Notes under the pieces: generated by a model
What the model was told of the DNA's origin: nothing
What the model saw: the letters and a program-made list of their open reading frames with translations, nothing else
Database searches by the model: none
Assembly (NCBI GenBank): GCA_963555705.1
Contig: OY743169.1
Span: forward strand, 6,262,014-6,326,013
DNA length: 64,000 nucleotides
Direction of reading: 5' to 3'
From: Ligustrum vulgare
Taxonomy: Eukaryota > Streptophyta > Magnoliopsida > Lamiales > Oleaceae
Shown: piece by piece, positions 16,885-52,914 of the stretch
Layout of the letters: every line of letters begins with the position of its first letter
Numbering within the stretch: position 1 is the stretch's first letter
Program-made: the position numbers and the translations under genes

Positions 16885-17121
16885 TTTTATCATACCTCAC
16901 TCTATCCTTTTGCTTTACATCCTCATCAATCCCACTTTCTTTGCAAAAATCCAACTTAATTAAAATAATTACTCTTAAACATGAATTTAATATTCTAAGT
17001 GACTTCATTATGATACTTTAATAAATGAGATACATATATTTTTTTTAGAAAAAAGTAAACACTTGTTTGAAATGTTGCGTGGACATCATAAGCTGCTCCT
17101 GTTTGGTATTCCTTAAAAATA

Positions 17122-17152
<31 letters not shown>

Positions 17153-17488
17153 TTTATTTTTTTTCTACAGTATTCAATTATAATTTTAATCACATTTTAA
17201 TATTAAAATATCCTATACATAAATACAAAACTTTTCTTTCATTTTTAACCACACAATATACATCAATCACTATTCAAATAATTTTTTTCCCAAAATAATG
17301 TACATATCAAACACACACTAAATGATCTTCATCTTTATCAGTATTTCAATGTGAGTTGTTATCCAATATTGGTTTTTTAGACTAATTTTTTTTTATTATT
17401 TTATTTTAAAGAATGTCATCTACGTACTTTGATTTTTACATGTATACCACCAGCGATTTTGAGTTTTGTATTTTGAATAATGCAGAAT

Positions 17489-17601
17489 GGAAAAAGCTAT
17501 TTGGACAACAATAATGAACAACATTGTGGACAACACACTCAAAGGGGGGTGGGGTGTTGTCCACAATGTTGTTCAACTATGTTGTTTAAGTAGAATTGTC
17601 C
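17489..17601. mobile_element. MITE, 113 bp, foldback, TSD ATGCAGAAT
   Basis: Flanked by the 9-bp repeat ATGCAGAAT (17480-17488 and 17602-17610), and absent at the matching site in copy B (about 44395). Both arms contain ACAACATTGTGGACAACAC in inverted orientation around a G-rich loop, so the whole element is a near-perfect hairpin. A 9-bp duplication points to the Mutator superfamily. Confidence 0.82.
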
Positions 17602-18029
17602 ATGCAGAATAGTGAAAGCACACTAATATCGAGAGGAGGGAAGGTTTATAGATATACCGACTTGGTAAAAAGAGAAGGTCTAACATGATTATGACCGCCA
17701 TTCATGTTGAACCCAAACTATGTCCAACCAAAAGACAACTATCTACTAAGTCCAGTATTAGACCGACTCATTTTTATTATGATCAATCGTTCTACTTTCA
17801 CATATCCATATAATGTGTGTTTCTAATATCTTTTGTCTCAATTATTATGTAAAATGATTTTGATTATTTAACTTGCAATTTTGCAATTTTCTTTTATTCA
17901 AATTACAAGGGGTTGGTTGATACTATTTAAATGTCAAATGGACCAAAGGAAATCATATAATTAAAAGTTGGAAGATGACTATACAAACCAAAACTTACTC
18001 ATTGCATCCCACCAATTTCTTTAATCAAT

Positions 18030-18580
18030 AGCATTTATAATGAGAATCATAGGAGGGTCGACAAGGAAAAAACAATCATGTGAGCCAAACAAATTTTGAG
18101 TACATTTTGAAGGACTCCTGAAGTATAAAAGTATAGTATTCGAGGCTAAAACAAGTGATTAAACTCAAGAAACAAGCCAAGAATCAAATTGGAGATCAAA
18201 ATCACGCATGCTAGAATTTACTCCATGGGGCCTCTCAGAAGGAAGACCGCGCGGCCGCGCGCTCCTCTACTAAATCAACAGAACGAAAAATCTCCACCTG
18301 CGTGGCCACGAGGTTTTCTCCTGCGCGGTCGCTCAGTTATACTGAAGACAGAATTCTCGGGATTTTAGTTCATTTTCGATTTTTATTTTATTTCCATTAT
18401 TTTGTACTATATATACCCATTTTCCATCAAACCCTAATAACTTAGAATGGAAGAATATTGAATCCTCTTTGGAGAGTATTTGTGTGGTAAAATCCTCATC
18501 TTAATATTGTTTCTCTTTTGAGAAAATTATGCTCAACTTCATGTGGCTTTTATGAATCTTGCGTTGTTGGAAGAAAAATT
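18030..18580. other. Copy A-specific segment at the position of the missing TIP gene
   Basis: Homology with copy B stops near 18028/45742 and resumes near 18584/48050. Copy B has about 2.3 kb with TIP4;1 here; copy A has 550 bp unrelated to it. The segment includes GC-palindromic words (GCGCGGCCGCGCGC at about 18249) and a TATATATACC box at about 18409 followed by a leader-like stretch. This resembles a truncated retroelement LTR, but no ends or target duplication are clear. Confidence 0.5.
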
Positions 18581-18933
18581 TTATCCAAATATTTTTTACT
18601 ACTATGAATAAAAATCTTCAAAATATTATAATGTACATAAAATAAAGTAATTGCAATAACTTAAATATATGCGATCCTATATTTAAATGAATGTAACAAA
18701 TTAAGAAATATTGACGATTCCCGAAAGTGGGAATCAACCCAAGAGACCCTTCGCATAATTTCAAGTATTTTCCAAAAAAAAAAAAAAAATCATTAATTTA
18801 AAAAAATATCGTTACATTAATTGGTTCTTCCTTTTTCATATTGGAAATTTCTTTATTCATATAATTATATTATTATTTTAATAAAAATTGCTAACCGACC
18901 AGTTGTTTAACAAAAAAATTATGAATTAATTAT

Positions 18934-20443
18934 TGTTCACTGATATCTCGCGATGCGAAATATCCCCACAAGTGTACGGGTCGTGAAAAGTAATAAAAAT
19001 GGATCTAGAAGTCCAGATTGTCGTCCCTCAGAGACTGCTTACTAATTATCGAAATATGTAAATTCTTATCCTTATTTGAACTAATAAATGAATTTTGATT
19101 GTTTTAAACTAAAATTATGAACGATGACTAAAAGATTAAACTTTTGCACTAGATCGAGATTTCAGGATTGCTACTGTTTTTAAATATGGTTGAATGTAGT
19201 TGGGATTCACGAGTTCACCTAACCAATTAACTCAATTCCAATTCCACTTCCTAAATATTTGTTTGATCGAATTCACTAATTCAAATTGAGATTCCTCTCT
19301 CGAGTTTAAATCAATATTATCTGAATAAGTCAACCTCGTATCTCTACAGCGGGTCTGAATATTCCTTACCTAGATGCATTACACACAAGAATTCACACAC
19401 ACGATCGCAATAATCACAAGAGTATATCTCTATCTCTCGTTCAATTACCGGATTTATTACCTAGATCTATGTTATTAACTCACCTCTCGGATTATGGAAA
19501 TAACACATGAAATCATGGAAAAATGGCTAGTTCATTCACACATTAAACGCAATAATAAATCAACACATGCATTGAATTGTTAAAACAAGGAATATGAAAT
19601 TAAAATAATTAACTAGGCTACATCGTTCATCCCAACATTAAAATTAGTTACACATCATTATGAAATAACAAAAATAGTAAAAATAAACGTTCATTGAAAA
19701 ACAATATAAAGAATGGAAATCTTGTACCAAGTTTTTATCCTTCAATTGTCTTCAATTCGCGTCTCTCTGCAATGCTTGAATCTTCAAGGAATTGATGATG
19801 AAATCTCTATTGTGGCTCGTTCTATGGAGAGGCAAATGTCTGATTTTCGTGCCTCATGTGTTGTATATATAGATTTCGAAGAAACCTAGGTCAAGAAAGA
19901 GAGAATTCTGTTGAAAATCGCGAGAAAAAGCCCACAGTCGGCCCAACCGAAAAGTCACGCGATCGCGTGGCTTCAACCCTAGCGATCGCGTGGACTTCGT
20001 TAAAACTCTCGGGTTACAATTTTGCATCTTCTCGCGATCGCGTGGTATGTATCCAGCGATCGCGACTTCTATCTTTTCTTGGCTGTGTAAGTTGGTCCCT
20101 GACTTTTAATTGCACCTTCAATCCTCAACTTTCAATTGTTGCGATTTAGTCCCCAAACTTTATATTCTTCTTGATTTGCCAGTTTAAGCTCTCAATTCTT
20201 TCACTTGGGTCCTCCAACCTCTGATTCGTTCATTTTGGCACATTGCATCTTTCCAGTTGACGTCACAAACTTATCAATTGCTCGTTTTAGCTCCAATTAG
20301 CATCCAATTGTATCAACTCTCCATTAATTTCTTCATTCTTCATATTTTGGGATATTTTCTGCAAAGTAACAATTAAATACAAATTAAAGAGCATATATTC
20401 TTAAAACGACAATAATTTCTTCTAATTTAGACATACAGTATCA
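18934..20443. mobile_element. Solo LTR, 1.5 kb
   Basis: The segment begins TGTTCACTGATATC and ends CATACAGTATCA, flanked by ATTAT (18929-18933) and ATTGT (20444-20448), a 5-bp duplication with one mismatch. Copy B has the uninterrupted sequence near 48990. Shared terminal words link it with 14947-16656. Four GCGATCGC palindromes cluster at 19955-20065. Confidence 0.75.
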
Positions 20444-22489
20444 ATTGTTAATATTTGAAATATATATTCTGTGTATTGTAATTATTTAAATTTATAATAA
20501 AAAAATAGAAAAAGAACAGAATCGGTAATAAATAAAAATAAGTCAAAATGACGAATGAATTGTTCCAAATCTTAAGTTATAAAAATTAACACGACTTAAT
20601 TAAATTTACTTTGAAAATTCATATATTTATTATTCGTTTAAATTTGATAACAAAAACAATTCGAACTGAAATTAATCATCCATGACAAAATTGAATTTAG
20701 TAAACAAATTATAGATGGTATTATAGGATTTAAATGATTTAATTTAAAATGAATGAGATATTGAGGAAAAGTAAAAAAATATAAAATAAAACTTTTACCT
20801 TCGATCTTTAAGACGATTTTATGGATAATATGTTTACAGTTTGTTATCACTTGTTAGCTTATATGAAATTTCTCATTGAGTTCTTTAATTTGACATCCAT
20901 ATTACATATTTTTCGATTTCAAAATAATACAAAAATTCGCAAAACATTAATGTAATTTATAATTAGCCCCTGCTACAAACCCCCACCGCGGGACCACCAT
21001 TGGGAAATTCCTATGGCAAACATTTCTTCCTCTACGACGTTTAGAAAATAGATCTAGATTTCATTTATCGAGATGAGATCTGATTTGTCATGGACCTGAG
21101 AAAATAGATACCTATCTATCTTCTTCTCCTGTACCATCGTTGCCATCTACAACTAAAACACCACCAACTAGCCACCAGCAAAACTACAACAATATATATC
21201 TGATGTCAAATTTCTCTCGAGGCTTACTGCGGAATGGCTTGCAATGGTTAATATTAAAGAGTAGAGTATCAGGGAAACAACCTTTGGCTTTCTAAACACG
21301 ATATAATGAAGCCCTGCCGAAAAATTAATAATTACAATAGCGCGTTCTATAGCAAGAGCCATTAGATATGAACACTAAATTCCTTGCAACCACAAGTTGC
21401 CAAGTTATTCCCTCCTTCAGAGATATTGCTCCTGTACCACGTTCTTTGAGCAAGATGAATAGACATGTTCAGCTTTTCGTGATTTCTCTTTAACTCTAAA
21501 ATTGACACTGTAGACACTGATTCATTAACTGAAGAGCAAATTAGATACTCTAGGCAGTACAAGTGAAGGAAGGAGAATTGGTGAGCAATGCTAAGAGCGC
21601 TTGTGCTTAATTATTTATTTGTCAGATCAAAGATGGAGATAAAAGTAGAAATTCAAGCCTGCTTCAAATAATGGAAACCATGATTGAACGACTATGGAAG
21701 CGAAGGAAGGAGGAGATGGTGGTGGTCGAGGTTTCAATTTTTGTCGACAGAGATGGAGGTGGTTGGGTCAAGATCCAAATTTGCATAGTGGTCAAGGGTT
21801 GTGTGGCCGATGGTTAAGAAGGAGCGGGTGGTTATGTTTCGGTGGTCAATTTGTTTTAGCATATAGATTAGGCATGGGCAAAAGAATCGGAACCAACGAT
21901 TCGGTTCGGTTCTTTCAAAATTTTAAACGGTTATGGTTCTATAAATCAAGAGCCATTCGGATCTAGTTCCGGTTCTAGGTTTATGTGACGACCCGAATTC
22001 TCGACCATTCGAGTGCCATTAAAGTGACTCATATCATATTATCGAGACTTAAATAGAAATGTAAAATTATTCAAAAGAATAATTAGAATCCCATAATTTT
22101 ATTTGTGAATAAAAATAGAACATAATTTTCTTACATAAAGTTCAACATAATTATCTCATCAATCTTAACCACTTTTGCCACTTCCATGTTGACCGCCTCG
22201 AACCTTCAATTATCTGAAAATGATAAATATCGTGGAGTGAGATTTATAAAATCCCAGTAAGTATACCAAGCATAAATTTTCTTTTGAAAGCATATGGATC
22301 ATTTTCATCATAACATAGGATATGATCGAAATACTCATAAACATAGGGAAACACAAGAATTTTACCGAACTTAAATGGCAAGAATTCTTATGTGTAGCGC
22401 TACTAAACTCCGGTCCCCTTAGCATAATCATAAACATATCATATGGAACCCATAACAATCTTGTGAGATTGATTTCATAGCAATGATCC

Positions 22490-23060
22490 AAACATTTTCA
22501 TAAAAACATAAGATATACTTACTTGTCATAAAAACATACTTACTTTTCATAAAAACATAAGGTGTATTTACCTTTCATAAAAACATACTTACTTTTCATA
22601 AAAACATAAGATATACTTACTTGTCATAAAAACATACTTACTTTTCATAAAAACATAAGGTGTATTTACCTTTCATAAAAACATACTTACTTTTCATAAA
22701 AACATAAGATATACTTACTTGTCATAAAAACATACGTACTTTTCATAAAAACATAAGGTGTATTTACCTTTCATAAAAACATACTTACTTTTCATAAAAA
22801 CATAAGATATACTTACTTGTCATAAAAACATACGTACTTTTCATAAAAACATAAGGTGTATTTACCTTTCATAAAAACATACTTACTTTTCATAAAAACA
22901 TAAGGTGTATTTACCTTTCATAAAAACATACTTACTTTTCATAAAAACATAAGATATACTTACTTGTCATAAAAACATACTTACTTTTCATAAAAACATA
23001 AGGTGTATTTACCTTTCATAAAAACATACTTACTTTTCATAAAAACATAAGATATACTTA
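22490..23060. repeat. Tandem array of CATAAAAACATA units in the left LTR
   Basis: Roughly 25-bp subunits, each containing TCATAAAAACATA followed by variants of AGATATACTTAC, CTTACTTT or AGGTGTATTTACC, form a higher-order unit of about 98 bp repeated about five to six times. The right LTR has the same array at about 28809-29380. Confidence 0.9.
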
Positions 23061-23286
23061 CCTTTTAAAAGATTAAAATGAAGTGTAGTAGTAAATGGAC
23101 CAAAACTTTCTTGACCACCTTGAATTTCTCTTACTTGTGGATTTTGTCAAGAGATTGGAAATAAGTGTATATGTGTAGAGTTGTGTGTAAAAGAGATGGG
23201 TTTAAATAGATGTATAAAGTTGGCATATTGTAAACATAATCATTCAATTCTATTAATTTTAACACATCCTTTTCTTAAAGTAAAGC

Positions 23287-23600
23287 ACCATTCATATACT
23301 TTTCCATATTTATACAAATATTATGCTCTTCATGATTACATATAATGGAGTCTTATCAACCATTCATATACTTTTCCATATTTATACAAATATTATGCTC
23401 TTCATGATTACATATAATGGAGTCTTATCAACCATTCATATACTTTTCCATATTTATACAAATATTATGCTCTTCATGATTACATATAATGGAATCTTAT
23501 CAACCATTCATATACTTTTCCATATTTATACAAATATTATGCTCTTCATGATTACATATAATGGAGTATATAATTCATTCATATACTTTTCCATATTTAT
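23287..23600. repeat. 72-bp tandem repeat in the left LTR
   Basis: Starts at 23287, 23359, 23431 and 23503 show an exact 72-bp period over about 4.3 units. The period is a multiple of three, so it opens a spurious 98-aa ORF with 24-residue repeats. The same array is at 29605-29918. Confidence 0.92.
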
Positions 23601-23930
23601 TAAATTAAGATTCTCATAATTATTATATATAATGGAACCTCTCATGCTTGCATATATTTTCTTAATTTCAATAATAAAAATAATTTTTGTATAAATAAAT
23701 ATTGGGATAACATTGAATTAAGTACTTGGACTTAATATACTTTAAATCAAGAGAATGGAGATATTTTTAGAAATTCGGAATTTAATTTAAAATCGAACGA
23801 TCTCGATTATTTCTTGACTTGGCTATACGAATACGTCGTGGCGTTAACTTAATAAAAATGGGTGAAATAGTAGCGACATGATTTTCTATTAAAATAATTA
23901 TTAATCGCGTAAAAATTCTTGGTCGCTACA

Positions 23931-23943
23931 AACTTACCCCCTT
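23931..23943 (-). other. Polypurine tract (minus strand)
   Basis: On the minus strand AAGGGGGTAAGTT directly precedes the LTR start TGTAGCGACC. A few bases further upstream in element orientation lies TTTCGAGGACGAAATT, usual near the 3' end of Ty3/gypsy elements. Confidence 0.8.
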
Positions 23944-24710
23944 AAAATAATTTCGTCCTCGAAATTAATCTTACTTGATCTTATGATTTCTGAACACTTA
24001 ATCAGAATCTCTTCTTCTTCTTCTTATGTAGCATCATCGCTACCATATTTAACCCACTGGACTTTGACTAAATGCATCAATTTGTTTTCTTAAGACATGG
24101 ACTTTTCTATCAATAATAGACATATGTCTACTCATAAATTCTTCTGAATCAAAATGAAAATTTCCAATCGTATGTGATATTTCATCATATCTTGTAGTAT
24201 TCATGTAACTTGTCATTTATCATCGTATCATGTGACCTCAAATATTCGTATTAATATCTCTAAAATTTCAATAAATCTTTACTAACATATCATACCATAA
24301 TAATTTGTCATTTCTTCTTATCACCAAATATCCCAAAATAATTAAAACGATTACCTGAATATTCTCTATGTAATATACCCAAACATGTTATTCACATATC
24401 AACATAATCATCAGTTTATCTTTCCAATATTTGTAACCCAAAATTTCTGCAAAATTCAATAAACAAATATCTCCCAAATAATTAAAATTCTTAACTCAAA
24501 TATCATAACATTTCCCGTAAGGTATTCCTTTCACTTGCACAAACTTATTAATCCTGATTCAATACAGTCCTTATTTCACTTTCACGTATCCCCGTATTAT
24601 TTCTATACCTTGATTATTATATCAAAATATCAGTACCCAAAATCCAAGAAAATATTCCATATCTCAAATCCCGTCATCATCAAATCTTCCTTTTATCAAG
24701 AAAGTAAACG

Positions 24711-24718
24711 GCGTATAA
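24711..24718 (+). promoter_or_regulatory. TATA-like box for the zinc-finger ORF
   Basis: GTATAAAC lies 82-89 bp before the ATG at 24800, followed by a pyrimidine-rich leader. 24800 is the first ATG after the expected start site. This is a sequence-based prediction only. Confidence 0.4.
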
Positions 24719-24799
24719 ACTCTTGTTCCCTCTTTTCCATTATTCTATTCCGCGCTTTCTTGCTGGAATCAATATCACGCGGATTCCCTCCGATCCTTA

Positions 24800-25399
24800 A
24801 TGCTTTTAAATAGTTCATGCTGGGAAGAGGTTAGATCCATCAAAAACATGGATATCATTCTTACAAACATTCGCAAGTATTATTCCAGTCTTCCAATGAA
24901 TGATCTGAGGAAAATTTATCGAATAAGACTCGAAAGATTGAGGTTGCTGATGGCTCATGGTGTTTCAGAAGATGTTCGCTGGTTTATCGAAGCAAAGGTT
25001 CGACTATCTGGTGAATTACCTATGACATTTCCAAAGCACATGCCTGGTTTAGGCAAAAGCACCTTCGCAAAGAAACGAAGAGCAAAAAGGCTGAATGGTT
25101 GCTACAAATGTGCTCGTTGGAACTGTGATACTCGTTGCAAAACAGTAGGATATTCTTCTACTAATCGGGATGATAAAATCAAATTCATAAAGGGTGGACT
25201 GAGTAAGGAGTCTTTGGATGATATTCGACTGACTCTTGAGACGCACCCAAGTGGTTATGTGCAACGTGAACTTCTCTCCTTATACGCTCAGTTTAACGAG
25301 GACAAAAATCGTTATAGTCTCCAAAATATAATAGCAAAAGATCCTGTTTGCCAGTCTGTTTTACAAAATGAGGCTTCTGGCAGTTCAACAATGATATAA
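24800..25399 (+). CDS. Cysteine-rich, basic zinc-finger-like protein carried by the retrotransposon
   Basis: An intact 199-aa intronless ORF, antisense to the element. Seen: a basic patch KKRRAKR (residues 91-97) directly before a compact four-cysteine motif, C101-x2-C104-x4-C109-x3-C113, then a hydrophilic tail with ESLDDIRLTLETHPSGYVQREL. The N-terminal 90 residues are helical-looking with many Arg and Leu. A basic patch followed by a C4 finger is the layout of cysteine-rich nucleic-acid-binding proteins of carlaviruses and related plant RNA viruses, several of which suppress RNA silencing. That resemblance is my inference from pattern, not an alignment. Alternative starts are Met17 and Met33. 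It lies about 300 bp before the LOG ORF in the same orientation. No clear plant protein family was recognised. It might instead be an unknown host or transposon protein. Confidence 0.6.
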   Translation: MLLNSSCWEEVRSIKNMDIILTNIRKYYSSLPMNDLRKIYRIRLERLRLLMAHGVSEDVRWFIEAKVRLSGELPMTFPKHMPGLGKSTFAKKRRAKRLNGCYKCARWNCDTRCKTVGYSSTNRDDKIKFIKGGLSKESLDDIRLTLETHPSGYVQRELLSLYAQFNEDKNRYSLQNIIAKDPVCQSVLQNEASGSSTMI

Positions 25400-25611
25400 G
25401 GTAAATCTCTTGATACACATTTAAAATATTTTGCTGTTTTCTTTCACGCGTTTTGGAAATAAAATATATTTTCCTTTCTCGAGTTTTGATAAAGCTGGAA
25501 ATAAATCACCGAAAGGTGATATCTTTGGTAAAACAGTCAAAAGTTGGCCGATTTTGACAAAAGTAAATCTTTACTTTTTCATAATCAATCAAAAACAGTA
25601 AATTTTTTCGG

Positions 25612-25621
25612 CTTTTAAATA
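25612..25621 (+). promoter_or_regulatory. TATA-like box for the LOG ORF
   Basis: TTTTAAATAG occurs about 76-85 bp before the ATG at 25697, followed by a leader without upstream ATG. Upstream there is a small hairpin, CACCGAAAGGTG near 25508. Confidence 0.4.
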
Positions 25622-25696
25622 GCCAAACATATTTCATAGTTCAGGCATCCCAAAATCACATCTTCTTCGTAAGTTTTCTCTTCTATACTATCAAAG

Positions 25697-26350
25697 ATGG
25701 AAGCACCAAAACTTCGACAGATCAAAACTATTTGTGTATTTTGTGGATCAAAAGTGGGGAAAGGCTTCAGTTATCTAGAAGCGGCCGTAGATCTTGGAAA
25801 GAAACTGGGGGAAAAAGGTATCACTCTTGTGTATGGGGGTGGTAGCAGTGGTCTAATGGGTTGTGTTTCCCAATCTGCTCTTGCAGAGAAATCAAAAGTA
25901 ATCGGTGTCATACCTGTCCCTTTGGTAGATGTTGCAGGCAAAACACGAGGGCATGAAGTTCAAACATTATCCATCCATGAACGCATAACTTGTATGCTAT
26001 ATGGTTCTGATGCCTTTATAGCCCTGCCCGGAGGTTTTGGTACCTTAGAAGAAATCTTTAACATTACCTCGTGGGCTCAACTAGATCTCCATACTAAGCC
26101 TATTGGGCTTCTGAATGTTAACAATTTCTTTGATGGCTTGTTAACCTTTCTTGATTATGCTGTGGAACAGGGATTCATCTCTCCATTTTCCAGAAGGCTC
26201 CTTATTTCTGCTCCTACTATTGATGAACTACTGGATAAGCTGCAGTCATATATCTCAATACAAGATCCAGCAGGGGTTAAGATAGATTGGTCGCAAGGAA
26301 GGGGAATCAAGCGAAAATGGAGTCCGGTTAATGTAAACTTAACTTTATGA
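25697..26350 (+). CDS. LOG: Cytokinin riboside 5'-monophosphate phosphoribohydrolase (LONELY GUY family), intronless
   Basis: LOG enzymes release free cytokinin bases from their ribotides in one step. This 217-aa ORF has the normal LOG length and is intact. Motifs: CVFCGS at 13-18, VYGGGSSGLMG at 45-55, GVIP at 70-73, an Arg at 96 in IHER, and the signature PGGFGTLEE at 111-119 with its Glu. WAQLDLHTKPIGLLN follows. The usual MHQRK stretch is changed (Lys lost after Arg96), and the overall sequence looks clearly diverged from typical plant LOGs while keeping the core, which suggests selection on the protein. Plant LOG genes normally have several introns; their absence and the position inside an LTR element point to capture of a processed transcript. 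It is antisense to the retrotransposon and next to the zinc-finger ORF. Lysine-decarboxylase annotation in databases refers to the same fold. Function as LOG is a strong inference. Confidence 0.9.
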   Translation: MEAPKLRQIKTICVFCGSKVGKGFSYLEAAVDLGKKLGEKGITLVYGGGSSGLMGCVSQSALAEKSKVIGVIPVPLVDVAGKTRGHEVQTLSIHERITCMLYGSDAFIALPGGFGTLEEIFNITSWAQLDLHTKPIGLLNVNNFFDGLLTFLDYAVEQGFISPFSRRLLISAPTIDELLDKLQSYISIQDPAGVKIDWSQGRGIKRKWSPVNVNLTL

Positions 26351-26359
26351 ATCTTAGAA

Positions 26360-26605
26360 TAGGTGGGGGTAGAGTACGGAGTATTCTTACTCTCGAGACA
26401 CCCCTCTAATTTCCTAGGATTTTCCTTAATGTTTAAATCTTGTGTGTACCTCAAAGGTTCCAGGTGGTAGATTACGGAGTATTCTTACTCTCGAAACACA
26501 CCTTTTTGAAGGTTTCTTTATTTCCTCAAAAGGTCAGAGGTGGTAGGATACGGCTACTCCGGAAACACATCTCTCAATTTGAGGAATTTCCCATGTTGCT
26601 TTCTT
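26360..26605 (+). repeat. Three imperfect hairpin-bearing repeats after LOG
   Basis: Three units begin GGTGG(GG)TAG at about 26361, 26464 and 26531, then carry TACGG, a short hairpin and GA(G/A)ACAC. Units 1 and 2 have the stem GAGTA/TACTC with loop TTCT. Unit 3 has a different short stem, CGG/CCG around CTACT. All three are followed by a CCTC/TTTCCTC-type stretch. They fall in the predicted 3' UTR of LOG. Function unknown. Confidence 0.75.
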
Positions 26606-26649
26606 TTGCTTTTGCGTGTTTTCATGTATTTCCTTTCTAGGGTGACTCT

Positions 26650-27310
26650 TGTGTGTTCTCCTTATGAGAAAATAATAATATCTCTGTTATCATCTACTAA
26701 ATCTCGTTTGTGATGTAAATGAACTTGTATGTCTAACTTCAATTCTCTTAGTGATTGCATACCATACTATGCTCTTAACTCCAAACGATAAAATTCTAGG
26801 CAGAGTTTTCCTTTGAAATTTGGACTTATCCAAATCGTAAGCATACTTCATAACTCACAATAATAACTAATTGTACATTTGATCACAATTTCATCAAACT
26901 TCAATATCATCATAAATATTCCAGAAAATCAATTCATAATTCCTCAACATAGAAATTTCAAATCATAATTTCTAATATCACCATATCAAGTCCTTATTTC
27001 TCAATAATTAAGAGCCTAAACTTTAAATCTCCAACTTCATAATTCTTCTCATAAAAATCTCAATAAAATCATATCACTTATAATCTCAACATCTCATCAT
27101 AACTTCATAAAACTGACTTTCTATTTCTCGTTTAATCTAAACGATGAATAATTCGAAAATATTATCTAGTCCTTTCGGTTGACTTCTCATACTTAGTGCC
27201 ATGTCTAAAATCAATTATGCAAAGTCCATTTAGGGCTCATCATTTCTAAACTTGACGACAAAGATTATTTTGAAAATCATTCGTAAATCTTTTTTTTTTT
27301 TTTTTTTTTC
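26650..27310. other. AT-rich interior of the retrotransposon
   Basis: No ORF or recognisable domain on either strand. The sequence is rich in CATAATTTC-like words. Confidence 0.5.
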
Positions 27311-27495
27311 AAAATTGAAACTTGAAGAGTGGTACCAATAATCATCCACAGTTTTTCCTTGCTTTTAAGCAAAGGTAGTGATAAAGGGATAAATTATTGA
27401 ACCGAAAATTGAAACTTGAAGAGGAAGTACTAATAACCATCCACAGTTTTTCCCTTGTTTTTACACAAAGGTAGTGATAAAGGGATAAATTATTG
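27311..27495. repeat. Tandem duplication, period about 104 bp
   Basis: Units at 27311-27409 and 27415-27495 share AAAATTGAAACTTGAAGAG, ATCCACAGTTTTTCC and AAAGGTAGTGATAAAGGG with a few differences. They lie inside the LTR element. No function suggested. Confidence 0.8.
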
Positions 27496-27789
27496 TACAA
27501 TTCATTATCAATTTTGTTTGTTTAATATATTATTCCATATATTTTGGGCCAAAGTTACAACCCAACTTAATTTCTAATTGAGTCAATCTTACTAAGCTTA
27601 ATATGAACCAAAATTCATATCAATATCCTCTATGTCTCATGATTCTACATTAAAATGAATAAATTAAAATTTAGGCTTCTATCAATTCATATCATACTCA
27701 ACATGTATATTTCACTTAAAGATTCATAACATATGAATATTTCATACTTAACATGTCTTAATAAAATCGTAAATGACTTGCAAAGCATA

Positions 27790-28080
27790 TAACATACCTG
27801 GTTCGAGGAGTCAATACGTGGAGAGTGACATAGTAGAGTGATGAGTTAAAATATTTTAAAAAAAAAATTATTATTAATCATTTCGCATCTTTACATAAGA
27901 TTGGGCCTAATTAACCCAAATAAAATTTTATCGTCAAATCTTATTTTCCTTTAGTCCCCGAACTTCTAGAAATTTATCAAAGACATCAATATAAACATCA
28001 TATCACTAACTAATTATATTCCATAAAATTTTCAGGACATTACAAACTCCCTTGCTTAAAATGAATTTTGTCCTTGAAAT
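27790..28080 (-). mobile_element. Fragment of a second Ty3-type LTR with its PPT motif
   Basis: On the minus strand TTTCAAGGACAAAATT and AAGCAAGGGAG precede TGTAATGTCC at about 28043. This mirrors the PPT/LTR junction at 23930 but with a different LTR start. The following bases include AAGTTCGGGGACTAAAGG, common in Tekay-like LTRs. The far end of this LTR is not clear. It suggests that the host element's interior was assembled from more than one retroelement. Confidence 0.55.
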
Positions 28081-28284
28081 TCGCACATCAAATTTCATCA
28101 TACTTTTCAAAATCATAACCATACTTGACATGTGAAAATTCAAAATTTTTTTTTTTAATTGAATAGTGATTTCGTTCACTGTTCATCATGAATAGCACGT
28201 CGTTTTACTGTTCACGTGAATAGTGTTTTTTTTTTTTTTAAGAAATAAAATTTCAAAAATCTACAGAATCGTTTTTAAAACTCT

Positions 28285-28298
28285 TGGCTCTGATACCA
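28285..28298 (-). other. Primer binding site (initiator tRNA-Met)
   Basis: On the minus strand TGGTATCAGAGCCA starts two bases after the end of the right-hand LTR. It is complementary to the 3' end of plant initiator tRNA-Met, the usual primer. It fixes the element's orientation as minus. Confidence 0.92.
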
Positions 28299-28300
28299 AC

Positions 28301-30248
28301 TGTGACGACCCGAATTCTCGACCATTCGAGTGCCACTAAAAGTGACTCATATCATATTATCGAGACTTAAATAGAAATGTAAAATTATTCAAAAGAATAA
28401 TTAGAATCCCATAATTTTATTTGTGAATAAAAATAGAACATAATTTTCTTACATAAAGTTCAGCATAATTATCTCATCAATCTTAACCACTTTTGCCACT
28501 TCCATGTTGACCGCCTCGAACCTTCAATTATCTGAAAATGATAAATATCGTGGAGTGAGATTTATAAAATCCCAGTAAGTATACCAAGCATAAATTTTCT
28601 TTTGAAAGCATATGGATCATTTTCATCATAACATAGGATAGGATCGAAATACTCATAAACATAGGGAGACACAAGAATTTTACCGAACTTAAATGGCAAG
28701 AATTCTTATGTGTAGCGCTACTAAACTCCGGTCCCCTTAGCATAATCATAAACATATCATATGGAACCCATAACAATCTTGTGAGATTGATTTCATAGCA
28801 ATGATCCAAACATTTTCATAAAAACATAAGATATACTTACTTGTCATAAAAACATACTTACTTTTCATAAAAACATAAGGTGTATTTACCTTTCATAAAA
28901 ACATACTTACTTTTCATAAAAACATAAGATATACTTACTTGTCATAAAAACATACTTACTTTTCATAAAAACATAAGGTGTATTTACCTTTCATAAAAAC
29001 ATACTTACTTTTCATAAAAACATAAGATATACTTACTTGTCATAAAAACATACGTACTTTTCATAAAAACATAAGGTGTATTTACCTTTCATAAAAACAT
29101 ACTTACTTTTCATAAAAACATAAGATATACTTACTTGTCATAAAAACATACGTACTTTTCATAAAAACATAAGGTGTATTTACCTTTCATAAAAACATAC
29201 TTACTTTTCATAAAAACATAAGGTGTATTTACCTTTCATAAAAACATACTTACTTTTCATAAAAACATAAGATATACTTACTTGTCATAAAAACATACTT
29301 ACTTTTCATAAAAACATAAGGTGTATTTACCTTTCATAAAAACATACTTACTTTTCATAAAAACATAAGATATACTTACCTTTTAAAAGATTAAAATGAA
29401 GTGTAGTAGTAAATGGACCAAAACTTTCTTGACCACCTTGAATTTCTCTTACTTGTGGATTTTGTCAAGAGATTGGAAATAAGTGTATATGTGTAGAGTT
29501 GTGTGTAAAAGAGATGGGTTTAAATAGATGTATAAAGTTGGCATATTGTAAACATAATCATTCAATTCTATTAATTTTAACACATCCTTTTCTTAAAGTA
29601 AAGCACCATTCATATACTTTTCCATATTTATACAAATATTATGCTCTTCATGATTACATATAATGGAGTCTTATCAACCATTCATATACTTTTCCATATT
29701 TATACAAATATTATGCTCTTCATGATTACATATAATGGAGTCTTATCAACCATTCATATACTTTTCCATATTTATACAAATATTATGCTCTTCATGATTA
29801 CATATAATGGAATCTTATCAACCATTCATATACTTTTCCATATTTATACAAATATTATGCTCTTCATGATTACATATAATGGAGTATATAATTCATTCAT
29901 ATACTTTTCCATATTTATTAAATTAAGATTCTCATAATTATTATATATAATGGAACCTCTCATGCTTGCATATATTTTCTTAATTTCAATAATAAAAATA
30001 ATTTTTGTATAAATAAATATTGGGATAACATTGAATTAAGTACTTGGACTTAATATACTTTAAATCAAGAGAATGGAGATATTTTTAGAAATTCGGAATT
30101 TAATTTAAAATCGAACGATCTCGATTATTTCTTGACTTGGCTATACGAATACGTCGTGGCGTTAACTTAATAAAAATGGGTGAAATAGTAGCGACATGAT
30201 TTTCTATTAAAATAATTATTAATCGCGTAAAAATTCTTGGTCGCTACA
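28301..30248 (-). repeat. 5' LTR (right) of the LOG-carrying retrotransposon
   Basis: 1948 bp with TG...CA ends. It differs from 21984-23930 at about five sites, all seen in the first few hundred bases (for example TTCAACAT against TTCAGCAT). It carries the same two tandem arrays. Confidence 0.93.
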
Positions 30249-30579
30249 GTTTAGAACCAGAACTGATAGAGTAAAACAGGATTTTTTATTTATTTTTAAA
30301 TATAAAATAAAAAAATAAAAAAATTCTTAAACTCAATGCATGTTATTTGGTCCATTAGTAATTATCAATTACTCAACAACTATTAACTTATTCAACATTA
30401 CAATAACTATAAGCAAAACAAGTAATAAACAAAAAATCATAGATCTAAAATCATTTTTTTTAGTAATTATGTCGTCCAGCTTCAACCCTTCAACATTTAG
30501 TTCTTCAAGAATCAACAAATAAGAAATCTTCAATCTATATCTCACAATCAGTTGTTATTTTATTTTCAAGGATTTGCTT

Positions 30580-30800
30580 GACTTGTGCGACTGTTCCCTA
30601 AAAAGGTGGAAAATTATAAGTAGAAATTGAAGAATTTTTTCGCGGAGCACATACAAGCGGATGATGAAATACATTACTATCTGAAAGGGAGTAAATATTT
30701 TGATGTCAAGGACAAAGATGACTGTTGTATTAGTATCTTGATCAAGGTCGATAACCGGTAGTCTTACGACTCTTGCCGGCCGGAATCTACCATGACTTCA
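30580..30800 (+). pseudogene. Acireductone dioxygenase fragment (copy A)
   Basis: The reading matches the copy B fragment at 52512-52745 but is more decayed: it has in-frame damage after the segment homologous to SEYFDVKDKD. Acireductone dioxygenase belongs to the methionine salvage cycle. Only the central metal-binding part is present, inside the hAT-like element, so this is a captured fragment and not a gene. Confidence 0.65.
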
Positions 30801-30953
30801 TTACTTAAATTTGAAAATTTTAATTTAGAAAATCGGAATTGGAACCAGAACCAAAGGAACTGAATTGTTCGATTCCAATTCAGTTCTTCTCTTACAAAAA
30901 GAACCAACGGTTCTTTTTTTCTGTTGGTTCTTTTTTCAAAAGAACCATTGGTT

Positions 30954-31763
30954 CACTACAAAAAAGTGACCTTTTACGACATGAATTTACGGCGTGCATA
31001 TAGGGCACGCCGTAAATGAATATATTTTACGGCGTGCATGATAAGCACGCCGTAAAATTTATTATCACCTTTAACGGCGTGTAAAACCAAAACCCCGTAA
31101 AAATTAAAAAAAAAAAACACGGCGTACATATTCGCACGCCGTAAAAATTATTCCTAAAATCACGGCGTGCATTTACGCACGCCGTGAAAAATGCCTAAAA
31201 TCACCAAACTTGGATGAAAAAATAGGGCGCTATTTTACGGCGTGCAAAATCGCATGCCGTAAATAGATACGATTTTGCACGCCGTAAACTAGGATTTTTC
31301 AAGTCGTCCCTAATTTTCAATTTTTTTTTTTTTTTATATAAACGTGTAAAATATTATATTTAGTTTTGTTCAAATTTTTTTTTTAATTCTCTTACTATAT
31401 ATTTATACAATTTTCTAACTAATATATATTAGTTAAAACAAAAATAAACACAAGAATTGAGTTGCCCTAGTGGTTTTGACAATGCCACATAACCCTTTGA
31501 TCAAGGGTTCGAATCCTATAATGCACATATATATCATATGAATTAAATAAAATGCTTGGATTGGCGGGTCGGGTCGAAATTTTGGATCAGGTCAAAATTT
31601 ATGCACGCCGTAATAGTTCACGGCGTGCATTTTTGCATGCCGTGTAAATTTATGCACGCCGTGAAAGTTTATGGCGTGACTTTTTACGGCGTGCGGCTGC
31701 ACGCCGTAAAAATGATTTTACGGCATGCAATGCACGCCTTAAAAGGCTACCTTTGTTGTAGTG
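30954..31763. mobile_element. Non-autonomous CACTA (En/Spm-type) element, 810 bp, TSD GTT
   Basis: Ends CACTACAAAAAAG and the inverse CACTACAACAAAG, flanked by GTT (30951-30953, 31764-31766). Copy B has the empty site near 52854. More than a dozen direct and inverted TTTACGGCGTGCA-type words crowd both subterminal zones, as expected for CACTA transposase binding sites. Inside at about 31455-31515 lie tRNA-like A- and B-box words (GCCCTAGTGG and GGGTTCGAATCC), possibly an old SINE head. No transposase. Confidence 0.92.
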
Positions 31764-31831
31764 GTTCTTGGTTTTGTTCGGTTTTCTGGGAACTAGAACC
31801 ATATGAAATAATCCCCATTCCTAATTTAGAT

Positions 31832-32836
31832 TAATTGAGAGAGGGGATCGGGTATGATTTAGGGTTTTAGGATATATTCTTTTTATTAATACTTGATTGT
31901 TAATAATATTTTTGAAACACCTGGTTTTTTTTTAACTTCTATTTATAAAAAGCACGACTAAACATAATTTTCCATTTTCTAATCTAGATCCAATCATATA
32001 AGCATATCTATTACTAGAGGCATCATCATAAATGTTGCTTTTCACTTTAAATGTCCAGCTAATATGGTAAGAGCACCTACAATGTCACACTTTTCAAATT
32101 GAAAAATATTTGCAACATCATTAAAAGAGATATTGTGTCAATATTATTATTTTTTTTTTATCTCCAATGCTTTAAATTTTGGAGTCCATTATGATGACAT
32201 GAAAACAATAAATGAAGAAAGTTTCAAACCCACTTTCTACCACTTGAAAGAAAGAGTGTTTAACATGATGATTAAGCAATTTTTGTTAAATGCTATTTTT
32301 TTAGTTTAAGTTTATTTTATTTAAATAAAAGAAATACCACATAGGCAAGACTATAGATTATAAATAATACATTGGAGATGACATTTGACATTCTCTTTCT
32401 TTTCATTAGACATTCTCTTTCTTTTCATTGAACATTTATCCTATGTGGAAAAAAATTTCATACATTAATTGCCATATATGGCAAAATTTATTCAATGTGA
32501 AAAATTTAGTATTGTAGATGCTCTAATGAGGTGAATGAGACAAATTTGATGTGACAGTCTGACATGATGTCTATTTGTAGACGATGTGTTAGTCAACTTC
32601 CACAACAAATGCTGCAATTTTGCATCTATCTCCTCTATTTTTCTCTCTTTCCTACTTTTATTCTCTCTTCTCACCTTTTTTTTTTCTCTCTTGCCACACC
32701 ATCTTTTTAGAACGTGTCTAGCATTGAAGATTCTCTAAGTTTTCTAGTAGATTATGTTGTCAATTTATTTTAATTTTAATAAACAATAGAGTATGTTGAT
32801 GTTATGATGTACAGTACGACCAAATTCAAAGATTTA
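31832..32836. other. Shared duplication backbone without genes
   Basis: Collinear with 52923-53940 in copy B at high similarity. No coding potential is recognised; the ORFs in it are pyrimidine-rich chance readings. The pattern AAGAGCACCTACAATGTC...TAGATGCTCTAATGAGG (about 32070-32528) suggests another old inverted-repeat element with ends AGAGCA(C/T)CTACA. Confidence 0.5.
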
Positions 32837-32984
32837 GGCTCTGTTTGCTAATGAAATTGTTTTCATTTTTTAAAACTCATTTCCAACCACATATTTCTAA
32901 GGGATTCACTACTTTTCACACTTTTAACCACTTTTCAATTACACATTCTCCAAAAATAATTTTTTCCCATTACCAAACAAGGCC
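32837..32984. mobile_element. MITE-like element, about 147 bp
   Basis: Ends GGCTCTGTTTGCTAATG and the inverse GGCCTTGTTTGGTAATG form a terminal inverted repeat. A relative sits at 55011-55156, and similar ends occur at 44812-44978 and 58921-59078. Confidence 0.65.
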
Positions 32985-33770: not shown

Positions 33771-33826
33771 AACTGTCGCAATGTTTGAAAAGAAACATCG
33801 ACATATTCGCATGGAACGCATAAGAT

Positions 33827-35420
33827 ATGCCGGGGATTGACCCCGCTCTTGTTGAACATAGGCTTAACGTCATGCCATATAAGAAGCCTGTAAAACAACG
33901 AAGAAGACAATTTGCTACTGAAAGAAGGCAAATAATAAAGGAGGAAGTAGATAAGCTCTTGAAAGCAGGGTTCATCAAGGAAGTAAAGTATCCAGAATGG
34001 CTAGCCAACGTGATATTGGTCAAGAAGCCGAATGGAAAATGGAGAGTCTACATAGATTTTTCAGATTTAAACAAAGTATGTCCAAAAGACAGCTATACTC
34101 TTCCTCGAATTGACAGATTGATTGACTCCACATCAGGTTCTGAACTTTACAGCTTCCTCGACACATTCTCGGGATATCATCAGATTCAAATGACGCAGGA
34201 AGATTAAGAGAAAACTTCCTTCATGGCCAATGAAGGGATATATTGCTACAAAGCCATGCCATTTGGATTAAAAAATACCGGGGCTACTTATCAAAGATTG
34301 GTAAACATGGTCTTTTCCAAACACATCGGGCTAACCATGAAAGTTTATGTTGATGACATGGTCGTAAAGAGCTCGAGAAAGAAAGACCACATAGCCGACT
34401 TGGAAGACATCTTCTCTACACTCCGACAATATCGGATGAAGCTAAATTCAGCCAAGTGCGCTTTCAGAGTATGTTCGAGTAAAATTTTAGGATTCATGAT
34501 CACTCAGCAGAGCATTGAAGTTAACCCTGATAAAATTATGGCCTTTACATCACTGGAACCTCCCAGGACCATTAGGGAAGTGCAGAAACTTATGGGTAGA
34601 GTGGCAACATTGGGTTGTTTCATGTCAAGGGCAGCAGATAAATGTTTTTCCTTCTTCAAGACTCTCGGAGGAGACAAGGAGTTCAGATGGAATGAAGAAT
34701 GCAATGTCTCCTTCAGGAAACTGAAGGAATATTTGGGACTCCTCCAATATTGGTAAAACTAAATCTGGGAGACAATCTGTTCTTGTATCTAGCGGTTTCA
34801 GATCATGCAGTAAGAGCCGTTTTGGTCAAAGAGGAAGGGAAGATCCAAAAACCTGTATACTATGTTAGCAAGATGATGTTGGATGCAGAAACTTGATATA
34901 CACTGGCAGAACAGCTCGCGCTTGCCCTGGTCACAGCAGCTAGAAAGTTAAGACCTTACTTCCAAGCCCATGCTATAACAGTCCTCACGAACCAGCTTTT
35001 GAAACACATCTTGCAGAAATCGGATGTTTGTGGTCGTCTACTCAAATGGTCATCGAGCTTGGGGAATATGACATTGAGTTCAAACCTCGACCTTCCATAA
35101 AGGCACAGGTCTTGGCAGACTTCATCGTCGAACTTGCTCCAAGACCTCGAGGGCTAACAGGTCATGACAGGGAAGAGGTTACATGGATTTTGCAAGTTGA
35201 TGGAGCATCGAATGGCGCAGGCTCGGGGGCTAGAATCATACTAAAAAAGGATGATGGCACAATGAAAATTCAGTGCACAATTAGGTTCGACTTTCGGACC
35301 ACTAATAATGACGCAGAATATGAGGCTTTTATCGCTGGGCTTCAAGCAGCTCAACATCTAGGGGTCGAGCATGTCAAGGTCTTGAGTGATTCACAATTGG
35401 TGGTAGAGTAAGTGAATGGC
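33827..35420 (+). pseudogene. Reverse transcriptase and RNase H (Tat lineage), degenerate
   Basis: RT words MPGIDPALVEH, KKPNGKWRVYIDFSDLNK and YVDDMVV (catalytic Asp pair) are present. One in-frame stop lies at 34205-34207, and a frameshift near 34700-34740 separates the connection domain. The RNase H part (about 35180-35411) reads VDGASNGAGSGARI, NNDAEYEAFIAGLQAA and SDSQLVVE before a stop near 35411. This is the archaeal-type RNase H found in Tat elements. Confidence 0.85.
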
Positions 35421-35534
35421 ACTTCTGAAGCAAAGATGAAAAAATGTCTTTCTTACAGAATGATGGTTCTGGGCTTGTAAAGGAAGTTCAAATCTTGTAG
35501 CGTAGATAAAATACCAAGGTCCACTAATCACAAA

Positions 35535-36640
35535 GTGGATGCCCTGTCAAGACTAACTTTTTCCAATCTGGACCACTTGGAGAGAACTGTGTTCGTGCGA
35601 ACACTGCATGAGCCCAGTATCACACAACAATCCGATATCATAGATATTTCAGAACATGAGCCCATTTGGATGGATCCAATTATCCAATACCTAATGTCGG
35701 GAAAATTTCCAGATGACAAAGCAGAGGCAAGAAGAGTCAAGGTAAGGGCCTTAAGGTATACCATATTACAGGGTACCTTGTTCCGTTGAAGCTTTACGCT
35801 TCCCTACCTTCGATGTCTAACCCCGAAAGAAGTAGCCCTTGCTATGATTGAGGTTCATGAAGGAATTAGTGGAGGACACCAGGGAGCAAGAGCACTGGTT
35901 ATTAAGTTAATGCGATACGGGTACTACTGGCCAACCATGAGGAAGGACACACTCAACTATGTGAAAACTTGTGATAAGTGTCAAAGATTTGCAGCCAGAT
36001 TGCATCAACCAGCAGAAGAACTATCTTCAATTATGTGCCCATACCTATTTGCACAATGGGGAGTTGACATACTTGGACCATTCCCTATAGCTCGTGGCCA
36101 AGTTAAGTTCCTAGAAGTGGCTGTAGAATATTTCACAAAATGGGTAGAAGCAGAACCTCTTGCCGTAATCACAGAATAAAAATTGGAGGTATTCGTTTGG
36201 AAGTCAATTATCTGCCGTTTTGCTCTTCCTAAGACATTAATCACAGATAATGGACTACAGTTCGAGTGCCAAGCCTTCAAACAATTTTGTAAGAATTTGG
36301 GGATAGAACACAGATTAACTTCCGTTTCACACCTGCAAAGTAATGGATTAGCTGAGGTAACAAACTGGCTCATCTTGCAAGATTTGAGGATTCGCCTCGA
36401 CAGTGCCAAGGGTGATTGGCCCGATCTCCTTCCCGAAATTCTTTGGACAAATCGAACAACATTTAAGACAACAATGGGAGAAACTCCATTCATGCTAGCC
36501 TTTGGGATGGAAGCCGCTATTCTAGTGGAAGTGACGATTCCCAGCTTCCGCACAATGACTACAGAATCACCCAATCAACTTGAGGGCAGAGAGAAAGTCT
36601 GGATCTTCTGGAAGAAGTCAGGGAAAGTGCCGCCCTAAGA
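35535..36640 (+). pseudogene. Integrase (zinc-binding + DDE core), degenerate
   Basis: The zinc-binding segment HEGISGGHQG...TCDKC gives the HHCC pattern. The core holds the three catalytic contexts WGVDILGP, LITDNGLQF and LAEVTN. A stop at 36177-36179 interrupts the core in frame, and another ends the reading at 36636-36638. Confidence 0.82.
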
Positions 36641-43650: not shown

Positions 43651-44516
43651 AAAAGTCTTGACATGATTAAGATCACTAGTTTTAAGGGACTGTATAAAAG
43701 AGTGTCATGTCACTGTCGTTTTTAACCTCAAAAAGCATACTTTATAATTTTATGTCTTTAATTTTTAACATCGACATAGTGATACAAAGCATAATATTAA
43801 TAGATATGACATACAATTAATTTTAATATTATGTGACTATTTTTATCATACCTCACTCTATCCTTTTGCTTTACATCCTCATTAATTCCACTTTCTTTGC
43901 AAAAATCCAACTTAATTACTCTTAAACACGAATTTAATATTCTAAAGTTGCTTCATTATGATACTTTAATAAATGCGATACATATAGCATATTTTTAGAA
44001 AAAAGTAAACGCTCTAGTTGGAAATGTTGTGTGGACATCATAAACTAAGTCCATGTTTGGTATTCATCAAATTTTTTTTTTTTTTTCTACAATAATCAAT
44101 TTTAACAACACATTTTAATATTAAAATATTCAACACATATATCTAAAACTTTTCTTTCATTTTCAACAACAAAATATCACATCAATCATTATTCAAAACA
44201 ATTTATTTCCAAAATAATATACATCAAACACACTAAATGATCTTTGTTTTTATCAATAATTCAATGTGAGTTGTTATTCAATATTGGTTTTTTAGACTAA
44301 TTTGTATTATTTTATTTTAAAGAATGTCATCTACCTTTGAGTTTTACACGTATACAACTAGCGATTTTGAGTTTTATATTTTTAATAATGCAAAATAGTG
44401 AAAGGACACTAATATTGAGATGAGGGAATGTTCGATGTTTTCAAAATTGTAGTTGAGACATACTGTGTTAAAATGATCTAGATATGTATAAAATATTTAT
44501 AGATATGCTGACTAGG

Positions 44517-52060: not shown

Positions 52061-52914
52061 TAGGCCTGAGCAAAAGAATTGGAACCAACGATTCAATTTG
52101 GTTCTTTCAAAATTTTAAACGATCATGGTTCTAAAAATCAAGAACCATTCGGCTATAGTTCCGGTTCTAGGTTTAGAACTAGAACCGATAGAGTAAAACA
52201 TGATTTTTTTTAATTTCTTTTTAAATATAAACTTTTTTTTTTAAAAAAAAACATCAATTCTTAAACTTAATATGTTTGTTATCTGGTCCATTTTAATTAT
52301 CAATTACCCAACAACTATTGACTCATTCAACATTACAATAACTATAAGCAAAACAAGTAATAAACAAAAAATCATAAATCTAAAATCATTTTTCTTTCAG
52401 TGGTTTTATCGTCCAGTTTCAAGCCTTCAACATTCAGTTCTTAAAAAATCAACAAACAATAAATCTTCAATCTCCATCTCACAATCAGTTGTTATCTTAT
52501 TTTCAAGGATTTGCTAGACTTGTGCGTTTGTTTCCTAAAAAAAGTGGAAAATTACGAGCAGAAATTGAAGAATTTTTTAGCGGAGCACATACACGTAGAT
52601 GATGAGATACATTACTGTCTGAAAGGGAGTGAATATTTTGATGTCAAGGACAAAGATGGCTGTTGTATTCACATATTGATCAAGGTCGATAACCTTACCG
52701 TCGTACGACTCTTACCAGCAGGAATCTACCATGGCTTCATCGCTTAAATTTGAAGATTCTAGTTTAGAAAATCGGAACCAGAACCAAAGGAACTGAATGA
52801 TTTTGTTCTTCTCTTACAAAAAGAACCAACGATTCTTTTTTCAAAAGAACATTGGTTCTTGGTTCCGTTCGGCTCCCTGCGAACTAAAATTATATGAAAT
52901 CACGCCCACCCCTA
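52061..52914. mobile_element. hAT-like element carrying an acireductone dioxygenase fragment (copy B, uninterrupted)
   Basis: Ends TAGGCCTGAGC and the inverse TAGGGGTGGGC, flanked by ATACAGAT (52053-52060) and ATATAGAT (52915-52922), an 8-bp duplication with one change. GGTTCT and AGAACC words are repeated near both ends. Same element as 21869-31823. Confidence 0.78.
52512..52745 (+). pseudogene. Acireductone dioxygenase fragment (copy B)
   Basis: The 78-aa reading contains NYEQKLKNFLAEHIHVDDEI, with the HxH-x3-E metal ligands of the ARD cupin fold, then YCLKGSEYFDVKDKDG and LPAGIYHGF, holding the later His ligand. Real ARD proteins are about 180-200 aa, so only the central third is here, without the usual N and C termini. 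It lies inside the hAT-like element, so this is a captured fragment of a methionine-salvage gene. Transcription is not expected. Confidence 0.8.

Follow-up and report, generated by a model that had tools for sequence, protein, structure and literature searches.

What does a long terminal repeat (LTR) retrotransposon without gag-pol carry, and why would such a cargo be kept? This question is raised by a locus of Ligustrum vulgare (assembly GCA_963555705.1, contig OY743169.1, positions 6,262,014 to 6,326,013). The whole stretch of 64,000 nucleotides analysed here is hereafter called the window, and positions are counted from its first letter. An 8265-bp LTR element occupies 21984-30248, with its sense on the minus strand as set by the primer binding site (PBS) and the polypurine tract (PPT). 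Antisense to it lie two intact open reading frames (ORFs), one for a flexivirus-type nucleic-acid-binding protein (NABP) and one for a LOG-type protein. We propose, with a probability of about 0.55, that this is a gag-pol-less LTR element with an antisense NABP-LOG cassette, likely derived from autonomous Ty3-type elements and predicted to serve as a host-manipulation module.

Structure, insertion and age of the element

The two LTRs (1947 and 1948 bp; Table 1) are 99.74% identical in the BLAST alignment and differ at five positions in the MAFFT alignment, namely four substitutions and a gap of a single base. Read on the plus strand, the two copies start with TGTGACGACC and end with GGTCGCTACA. 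A GTTTA target-site duplication flanks the element. The PBS TGGTATCAGAGC, which we take to be of the initiator-Met tRNA type, is located just inward of the 5' LTR, and the PPT AAGGGGG just inward of the 3' LTR. All of the features that define an LTR retrotransposon are thus present: direct LTRs with TG...CA ends, target duplication, PBS and PPT. The LTRs, the PBS and the stretch before the PPT presumably resemble those of a chromovirus.

The surroundings of the element are duplicated within the window. The flanks 21323-21983 and 30249-30919 match 51512-52175 and 52171-52841 (copy B), with identities of 93% and 85%. Between these matching flanks, copy B has only one GTTTA, at 52171-52175. The insertion is therefore most simply explained as younger than the duplication. 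The LTR divergence corresponds to an age of roughly 0.1 million years if substitutions accumulate at 1.3e-8 per site per year. An earlier note, made from the letters of this DNA, had described the near-identical LTRs, the GTTTA duplication, the PBS, the PPT and the empty site; BLAST, MAFFT and the sequence letters confirmed this structure in full.

Two tandem arrays are present in each LTR, one with 11.7 copies of a 49-bp unit and one with 4.9 copies of a 72-bp unit (22495-23065 and 23287-23636 in the left LTR, repeated in the other).

The interior of the element

The interior of 4370 bp holds two intact plus-strand ORFs, which are the only ATG-initiated ORFs of at least 80 aa in it. When the interior was shuffled 300 times by mononucleotides, the longest ORF obtained had 130 aa. 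The GC contents of the two ORFs are 0.39 and 0.42, versus 0.30 for the flanking DNA. Nine of the 25 stop-free interior pieces of at least 38 aa were scanned (44-116 aa), and none gave a Pfam match above the cut-off. The absence of gag-pol stated in the earlier note thus stands for the pieces scanned. Moreover, the interior outside the cassette amounts to only 917 and 1950 bp, which is too short for a full gag-pol. The element does not classify as an autonomous LTR retrotransposon, since neither gag nor pol was found in the 9 of 25 pieces. Nor is it a large retrotransposon derivative (LARD), which is defined by a large non-coding interior, because its 4370 bp contain the two intact ORFs. No second LOG or NABP was found within the 64-kb window.

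Several repeats were noted in the interior. A stretch on the minus strand at 28030-28100, AATTTCAAGGACAAAATTCATTTTAAGCAAGGGAGTTTGTAATGTCC, looks by eye like a second PPT followed by an LTR start, and its layout resembles by eye the 3' end of the element itself (23921-23975). Given this stretch, two elements may have contributed to the interior. Directly downstream of the LOG ORF there is a 41-bp direct repeat (26365-26405 and 26463-26503, 90% identical), with a weaker partial copy near 26535. We considered a structured 3' untranslated region at this repeat and rejected it: the 250-nt fold was no better than those of shuffled sequences (z 0.22), and five single pieces of the region gave z values of -1.45 to 0.41 against shuffles. 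A 96-bp near-tandem duplication lies at 27311-27495, between LOG and the PBS. A search of 21900-30300 with Rfam gave nothing at the gathering score.

The flexivirus-type NABP

The zinc-finger frame is open on the plus strand from an upstream ATG at 24800 to 25399 (199 aa). The start is most likely Met17 at 24848, giving a protein of 183 aa, because 63 of 72 aligned relatives begin at this column (with Met in 70 of 72) and the DNA similarity to a related locus, L004, begins there as well. The protein matches the Pfam families PF05515 (Viral_NABP; E=1.7e-7, 31.9 bits versus a gathering score of 23) and PF01623 (Carla_C4; E=8.2e-5, 22.9 bits versus 20.9). It has a CX2CX4CX3C finger preceded by KKRRAKR. 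A protein search found 361 relatives at E 0.001 or better, single clusters of which represent up to 566 member sequences. The details of the relatives given here come from the best 120 of these 361 matches. Among them, the relatives with organism names are from Populus, Acer and Xanthoceras; 106 of the 120 have the finger, and 94 have the basic stretch K[KR]RRAK. When 73 NABPs, including that of the window, were aligned, 69 matched Viral_NABP and 68 Carla_C4 at E 0.001.

A fold search against viral models gave nothing significant (E 0.11 to 7.1 among the 19 models listed). Twelve of the 19, at E 0.11 and worse, are named proteins of what we take to be flexiviruses; 11 of these are annotated as NABP, RNA-binding protein, silencing suppressor or 15-kDa protein, and the twelfth is annotated as a hypothetical protein. 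On sequence grounds, the first ORF is a member of Viral_NABP/Carla_C4, a zinc-finger family of flexiviruses. The earlier note had seen in it a C4-finger nucleic-acid-binding partner of LOG; the Pfam families bear this out, while the start most likely lies at 24848, not at 24800, and the flexivirus kinship had been missed.

A related locus behind an integrase

The DNA of NABP relatives is represented by one locus, L004 (3330 bp), the sole relative found in a contig scan with 96 pattern matches. It contains an integrase ORF (104-1594, with rve and H2C2 domains), which we take to be of the Ty3/Athila type, then the NABP in the same sense (1799-2347) and a PPT-like tract TTTAAGTTGGGGGG at about 2600. 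Its accession (DAIEQH010000041.1) is recorded under a Candidatus Nomurabacteria assembly. Because of its gene content, L004 is probably plant retrotransposon DNA contaminating a bacterial genome record. The only match of its integrase in the window is the decayed Ty3 remnant at 35571-36548 (28% identity). The DNA similarity between L004 and the interior of the element is confined to 24848-25353; it starts at the NABP start codon and ends inside the ORF.

Comparison of the two NABP genes by the Nei-Gojobori method (NG86) gave a nonsynonymous divergence (dN) of 0.29 and a synonymous divergence (dS) of 1.35, a ratio of 0.22, for this one pair by this one method and with dS near saturation. A codon bootstrap (200 replicates, 181 codons) gave a median of 0.21, with 95% of the values within 0.10-0.37. 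These values indicate that NABP has evolved under purifying selection, which tells of its lineage more than of the present copy.

The LOG-type protein and its clade

The LOG ORF is a single uninterrupted frame. Its product matches PF03641 (E=1.3e-33) and, in the PDB, 2a33 (Arabidopsis At2g37210; E=4.7e-58), which we take to be LOG3. The intact antisense LOG ORF reported earlier is therefore upheld by Pfam, the PDB match and the open frame. The residues of the GGxGTxE motif and the catalytic Arg have known roles in LOG enzymes, and both are found in the window protein, in which GGFGTLEE is intact and HERITCM is present. We call window-type those LOGs that are the window protein or its search matches; the term does not imply that each of them lies in an element. 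The motif is found in 106 of 115 rows of this type versus 92 of 95 host rows, and the catalytic Arg in 101/115 versus 95/95. The Lys after this Arg (M..RK) is retained in only 6 of 115 window-type rows versus all 95 host rows (rows of 195-235 aa), and is Ile in the window LOG. A C-terminal EAR-like LxLxL tail occurs in 92 of 115 window-type rows (at least 205 aa) and in none of 119 host rows. The AlphaFold model of the window LOG has a predicted local distance difference test score (pLDDT) of 81.4, with residues 200-217 under 50. The model thus predicts a disordered tail, as expected of a docking motif.

Among the matches listed, the nearest relative of the window LOG is P0121 (93% identity), followed by P0124 (63%). 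The identity to 23 aligned host LOGs is only 44-48%. A tree of 29 window-type LOGs and these 23 host LOGs, of which 22 came from one LOG3 query (LOG1/3/4 side) and one is At5g11950, split the two groups at 100/100. The window-type LOG nearest the host side, P0212, ends in KKRRLA and has no LxLxL. The relatives among the 120 listed are from Reevesia, Populus, Diospyros, Primulina and others. By hand count, 38 of the 120 listed rows are from Reevesia pubescens, on 16 chromosome-sized contigs; these rows are too many and too scattered for an ordinary host LOG family. The tree and the identities place the window LOG in a clade that is separate from the sampled host LOGs. When plasmids were searched with LOG by tblastn, 181 records matched, none of them reaching 60% identity; the five that were listed are bacterial.

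Proteins named LOGL10 or LOG3-like (P0125, P0180, P0218 and similar) sit among the window-type LOGs. Host LOG family counts may therefore be inflated in some plants, and some LOGL10 or LOG3-like genes may be transposon genes.

The earlier note had held that a single copy without relatives, or ORFs with dN/dS near 1, would point to a one-off recent capture. Relatives of both NABP (361) and LOG do exist in the databases, and for NABP the ratio of about 0.2 against one distant relative argues against neutrality.

Probable pairing of the two genes

The pairing was analysed by looking for NABP and LOG database rows with the same source and an identical contig size. Five row pairs match and have room for both proteins (4511, 8723, 1558, 1524 and 2128 nt). 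In shifted controls (sizes changed by +/-1 to 60, n=120), 0.32 pairs were obtained on average and 4 at most. Should the 1558- and 1524-nt rows each be one contig, the two ORFs would leave no more than 334 and 261 nt of them uncovered and would therefore be as close as in the window (297 nt). The matching contig sizes suggest that the NABP-LOG pair probably recurs in plant retrotransposons.

Features of the window

The features of the element are listed in Table 1. The duplication that contains copy B is a broken segmental duplication (16885-32947 versus 43841-54050, in pieces 80-94% identical), and an aquaporin exon (MIP, 47232-47618) lies within its copy B span. No further copies of the LTRs of the element were found elsewhere in the 64-kb window. 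At 33824-36638 lie the decayed remains of a retroelement, with pieces of reverse transcriptase and of integrase.

Table 1. Features of the element and of its empty site in the window
Feature	Position	Strand	Basis
Target-site duplication GTTTA, left	21979..21983	.	sequence letters
3' LTR, with 11.7 x 49-bp and 4.9 x 72-bp tandem arrays	21984..23930	-	LTR alignment
Polypurine tract AAGGGGG	23937..23943	-	sequence letters, just inside 3' LTR
Flexivirus-type NABP ORF, 183 aa, antisense to element (most likely start)	24848..25399	+	Pfam, relatives, start alignment
Inter-ORF spacer, 297 bp, GC 0.30	25400..25696	+	
LOG-type ORF, 217 aa, antisense to element	25697..26350	+	Pfam, PDB match, model
Non-coding interior, 5' side, GC 0.30	26351..28286	.	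scanned pieces: no Pfam match above cut-off
Primer binding site TGGTATCAGAGC	28287..28298	-	sequence letters
5' LTR	28301..30248	-	LTR alignment
Target-site duplication GTTTA, right	30249..30253	.	sequence letters
Empty site, single GTTTA, copy B of duplicated flank	52171..52175	.	flank matches

Proposed role of the cassette and alternative explanations

Retrotransposons are limited by silencing and profit from cell divisions that lead to the germline; it is on this ground that the cassette is read as a host-manipulation module. In the proposed mechanism, gag-pol would be supplied in trans and the cassette would be driven by its own plus-strand promoter. By analogy with its viral relatives, NABP may be a nucleic-acid-binding protein that reaches the nucleus and weakens RNA silencing. 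LOG would free active cytokinin from its nucleotide form, or release a product akin to it, and would thereby sustain cell division; dividing cells would be where retrotransposons gain germline copies. The EAR-like tail may tether LOG to TOPLESS-type corepressors or to chromatin. The cassette itself would be kept by autonomous Ty3-type elements, from which the gag-pol-less element of the window would have borrowed it.

Several observations weigh against this proposal. Only one copy of an element with this cassette was seen, and no LOG was found beside a pol gene in the DNA of the loci seen. The NABP of L004 is in sense and has no LOG, neither between NABP and the PPT-like tract nor after it within the 3330 bp, so that the pair and its antisense layout are not universal. 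As for the pairing, one of the shifted controls reached 4 pairs, and four further equal-size pairs (873, 905, 950 and 1018) had to be rejected as chance because both proteins cannot fit. The tail of the window LOG ends in KRKWSPVNVNLTL, where VNVNLTL is a looser form of the motif and not a strict LxLxL. The finger of NABP (CX2CX4CX3C) appears to differ in spacing from the viral C4 finger (about CX2CX9-12CX4C). Its AlphaFold model is weak (pLDDT 69.8, predicted template modelling score 0.36), a PDB sequence search with it gave chance-level matches only (E 0.27 and worse), and a PDB fold search gave no match. The one-sided host sampling of the LOG tree and the single-pair estimate of selection belong to the same side of the balance.

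The main rival explanation is that the cassette is a passive passenger, gained by a non-autonomous element from another retrotransposon through template switching in reverse transcription and still open as neutral cargo only because the insertion is recent. We regard this as possible, though distinctly less probable than the proposal above. The five differences between the LTRs, the single copy and the antisense orientation, unlike that of the L004 NABP, are in line with it, and the ORFs differ in GC from the flanks as foreign DNA would, but also as any coding DNA would. Against a passenger stand the two ORFs intact together with a short spacer, and the purifying selection on NABP relative to L004, which may have acted mostly before the insertion in the window. 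It is improbable that the cassette is nested debris, a piece of an Athila-like element that landed in an older LTR element and then decayed except for its two extra ORFs. The PPT-plus-LTR-start-like stretch at 28030-28100, seen by eye, would fit such an origin, but there is no pol domain beside the cassette in the pieces scanned, the sole counterpart of the L004 integrase in the window is the separate Ty3 remnant, and decay is not expected to spare both ORFs.

Ordinary host genes taken up as recent transcripts are a still less likely source. Plants do have LOG families, and some relatives bear LOGL10 or LOG3-like names; yet the window LOG is far closer to its nearest clade member (93%) than to the 23 host LOGs (44-48%), the two groups split at 100/100, the 38 listed rows of one genome exceed the usual size of a host LOG family, and none of the 120 NABP relatives listed has a host gene name. 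A joint origin from an RNA virus encoding both proteins is the least credible of these explanations. NABP is of a flexivirus family, and plant chromosomes are known to harbour sequences of RNA viruses, among them one in cucumber that is like a betaflexivirus replicase (PMC3136472). Against it, a search of IMG/VR gave 35 pattern matches for NABP with no relative among them and 29 for LOG with three loci at 29-47% identity, and NABP occurs without LOG in L004.

Starting from the host-manipulation module as the preferred reading, a wider and tentative hypothesis may be considered. Ty3 elements of several eudicot orders may have long maintained a "virulence" module of a silencing suppressor and a repressor-tagged cytokinin enzyme and passed it to gag-pol-less satellites, and the flexivirus NABP may derive from them. 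If this were true, such elements would blind silencing and push division, and so resemble a virus that stays in the genome for good. Should the two proteins act as predicted, plant transposons would be active opponents of silencing and would change hormone levels. The element also makes a testable case of the antisense extra ORFs, hitherto of vague origin, since one of its ORFs is of a clear viral family and the other of a clear hormone-enzyme family with clade-specific changes.

Comparison with known systems

The viral counterparts of NABP are the cysteine-rich NABPs of carlaviruses, vitiviruses, allexiviruses and mandariviruses, which share with it the Pfam families and a basic stretch followed by a C4 finger (PMC12172455). 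Several members of this family suppress RNA silencing, and p12 of chrysanthemum virus B is also a transcription factor that induces hyperplasia (PMC12172455). Unlike these viral proteins, the window NABP is encoded in plant DNA, inside a retrotransposon. The retrotransposon-type NABPs are also longer (182-183 aa) than the flexivirus proteins of the fold search (97-170 aa). Endogenous flexivirus-like sequence is itself known, as a replicase in cucumber (PMC3136472).

The products of plant LOG enzymes are active cytokinin or its riboside, and the enzymes tested split into makers of isopentenyladenine (iP) and of its riboside (iPR) (PMC11593424). The window LOG shares with plant LOG1/3/4 (PDB 2a33) the sequence family, the GGxGTxE motif and the catalytic Arg. 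It differs from them in its separate clade, the lost Lys after the Arg, the EAR-like tail and the uninterrupted ORF; host LOG genes have introns. LOGL4-like extra ORFs were reportedly described in two Athila-like elements by Steinbauerova in 2011. LOG (YgdH) domains were found in the consensus sequences of Gypsy elements from two Citrus species and also, when the filter was relaxed, from Populus trichocarpa (PMC9289625). The cargo is therefore not new in the sense of the earlier note, according to which a mobile cytokinin-activation cassette would be a new kind of transposable-element cargo. The Citrus and Populus elements are likewise LTR retrotransposons with a LOG-family extra ORF, but they were found through a reverse-transcriptase marker and so have pol, which was not found in the window element. 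A virus-type partner, the clade traits and a gag-pol-less form are not among their features described in the available part of PMC9289625.

Antisense extra ORFs in plant retrotransposons are also a known class (PMC7264820; PMC11963269). Grande, RIRE2, Retand and PvRetro13, the aORF-3R elements, have an intact antisense ORF toward the 3' LTR, as in the window (PMC7264820). In these elements the ORF is placed after pol and before the 3' LTR; the window cassette is nearer the 3' LTR, with no pol for reference. In the same source, the aORF-3R proteins are said to have no clear similarity to other proteins, the exceptions being an SMC domain in PvRetro13 and a transposase-28 domain in Retand, and antisense extra ORFs are stated to have no similarity to other transposable elements or viruses (PMC7264820). 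The window element further resembles LARD-type elements in its long LTRs, PBS, PPT and lack of a detected gag-pol, and differs from them in the two intact ORFs of its interior; LARD interiors are non-coding by definition. The open-licence literature, viewed through its top matches where these were many, gave no report of the flexivirus NABP family in retrotransposons, of the NABP-LOG pairing, or of the LOG tail with the loss of Lys. Relative to the literature so searched, LOG in Gypsy elements and antisense ORFs are known, whereas the NABP partner, the pairing and the traits of the LOG clade appear to be new.

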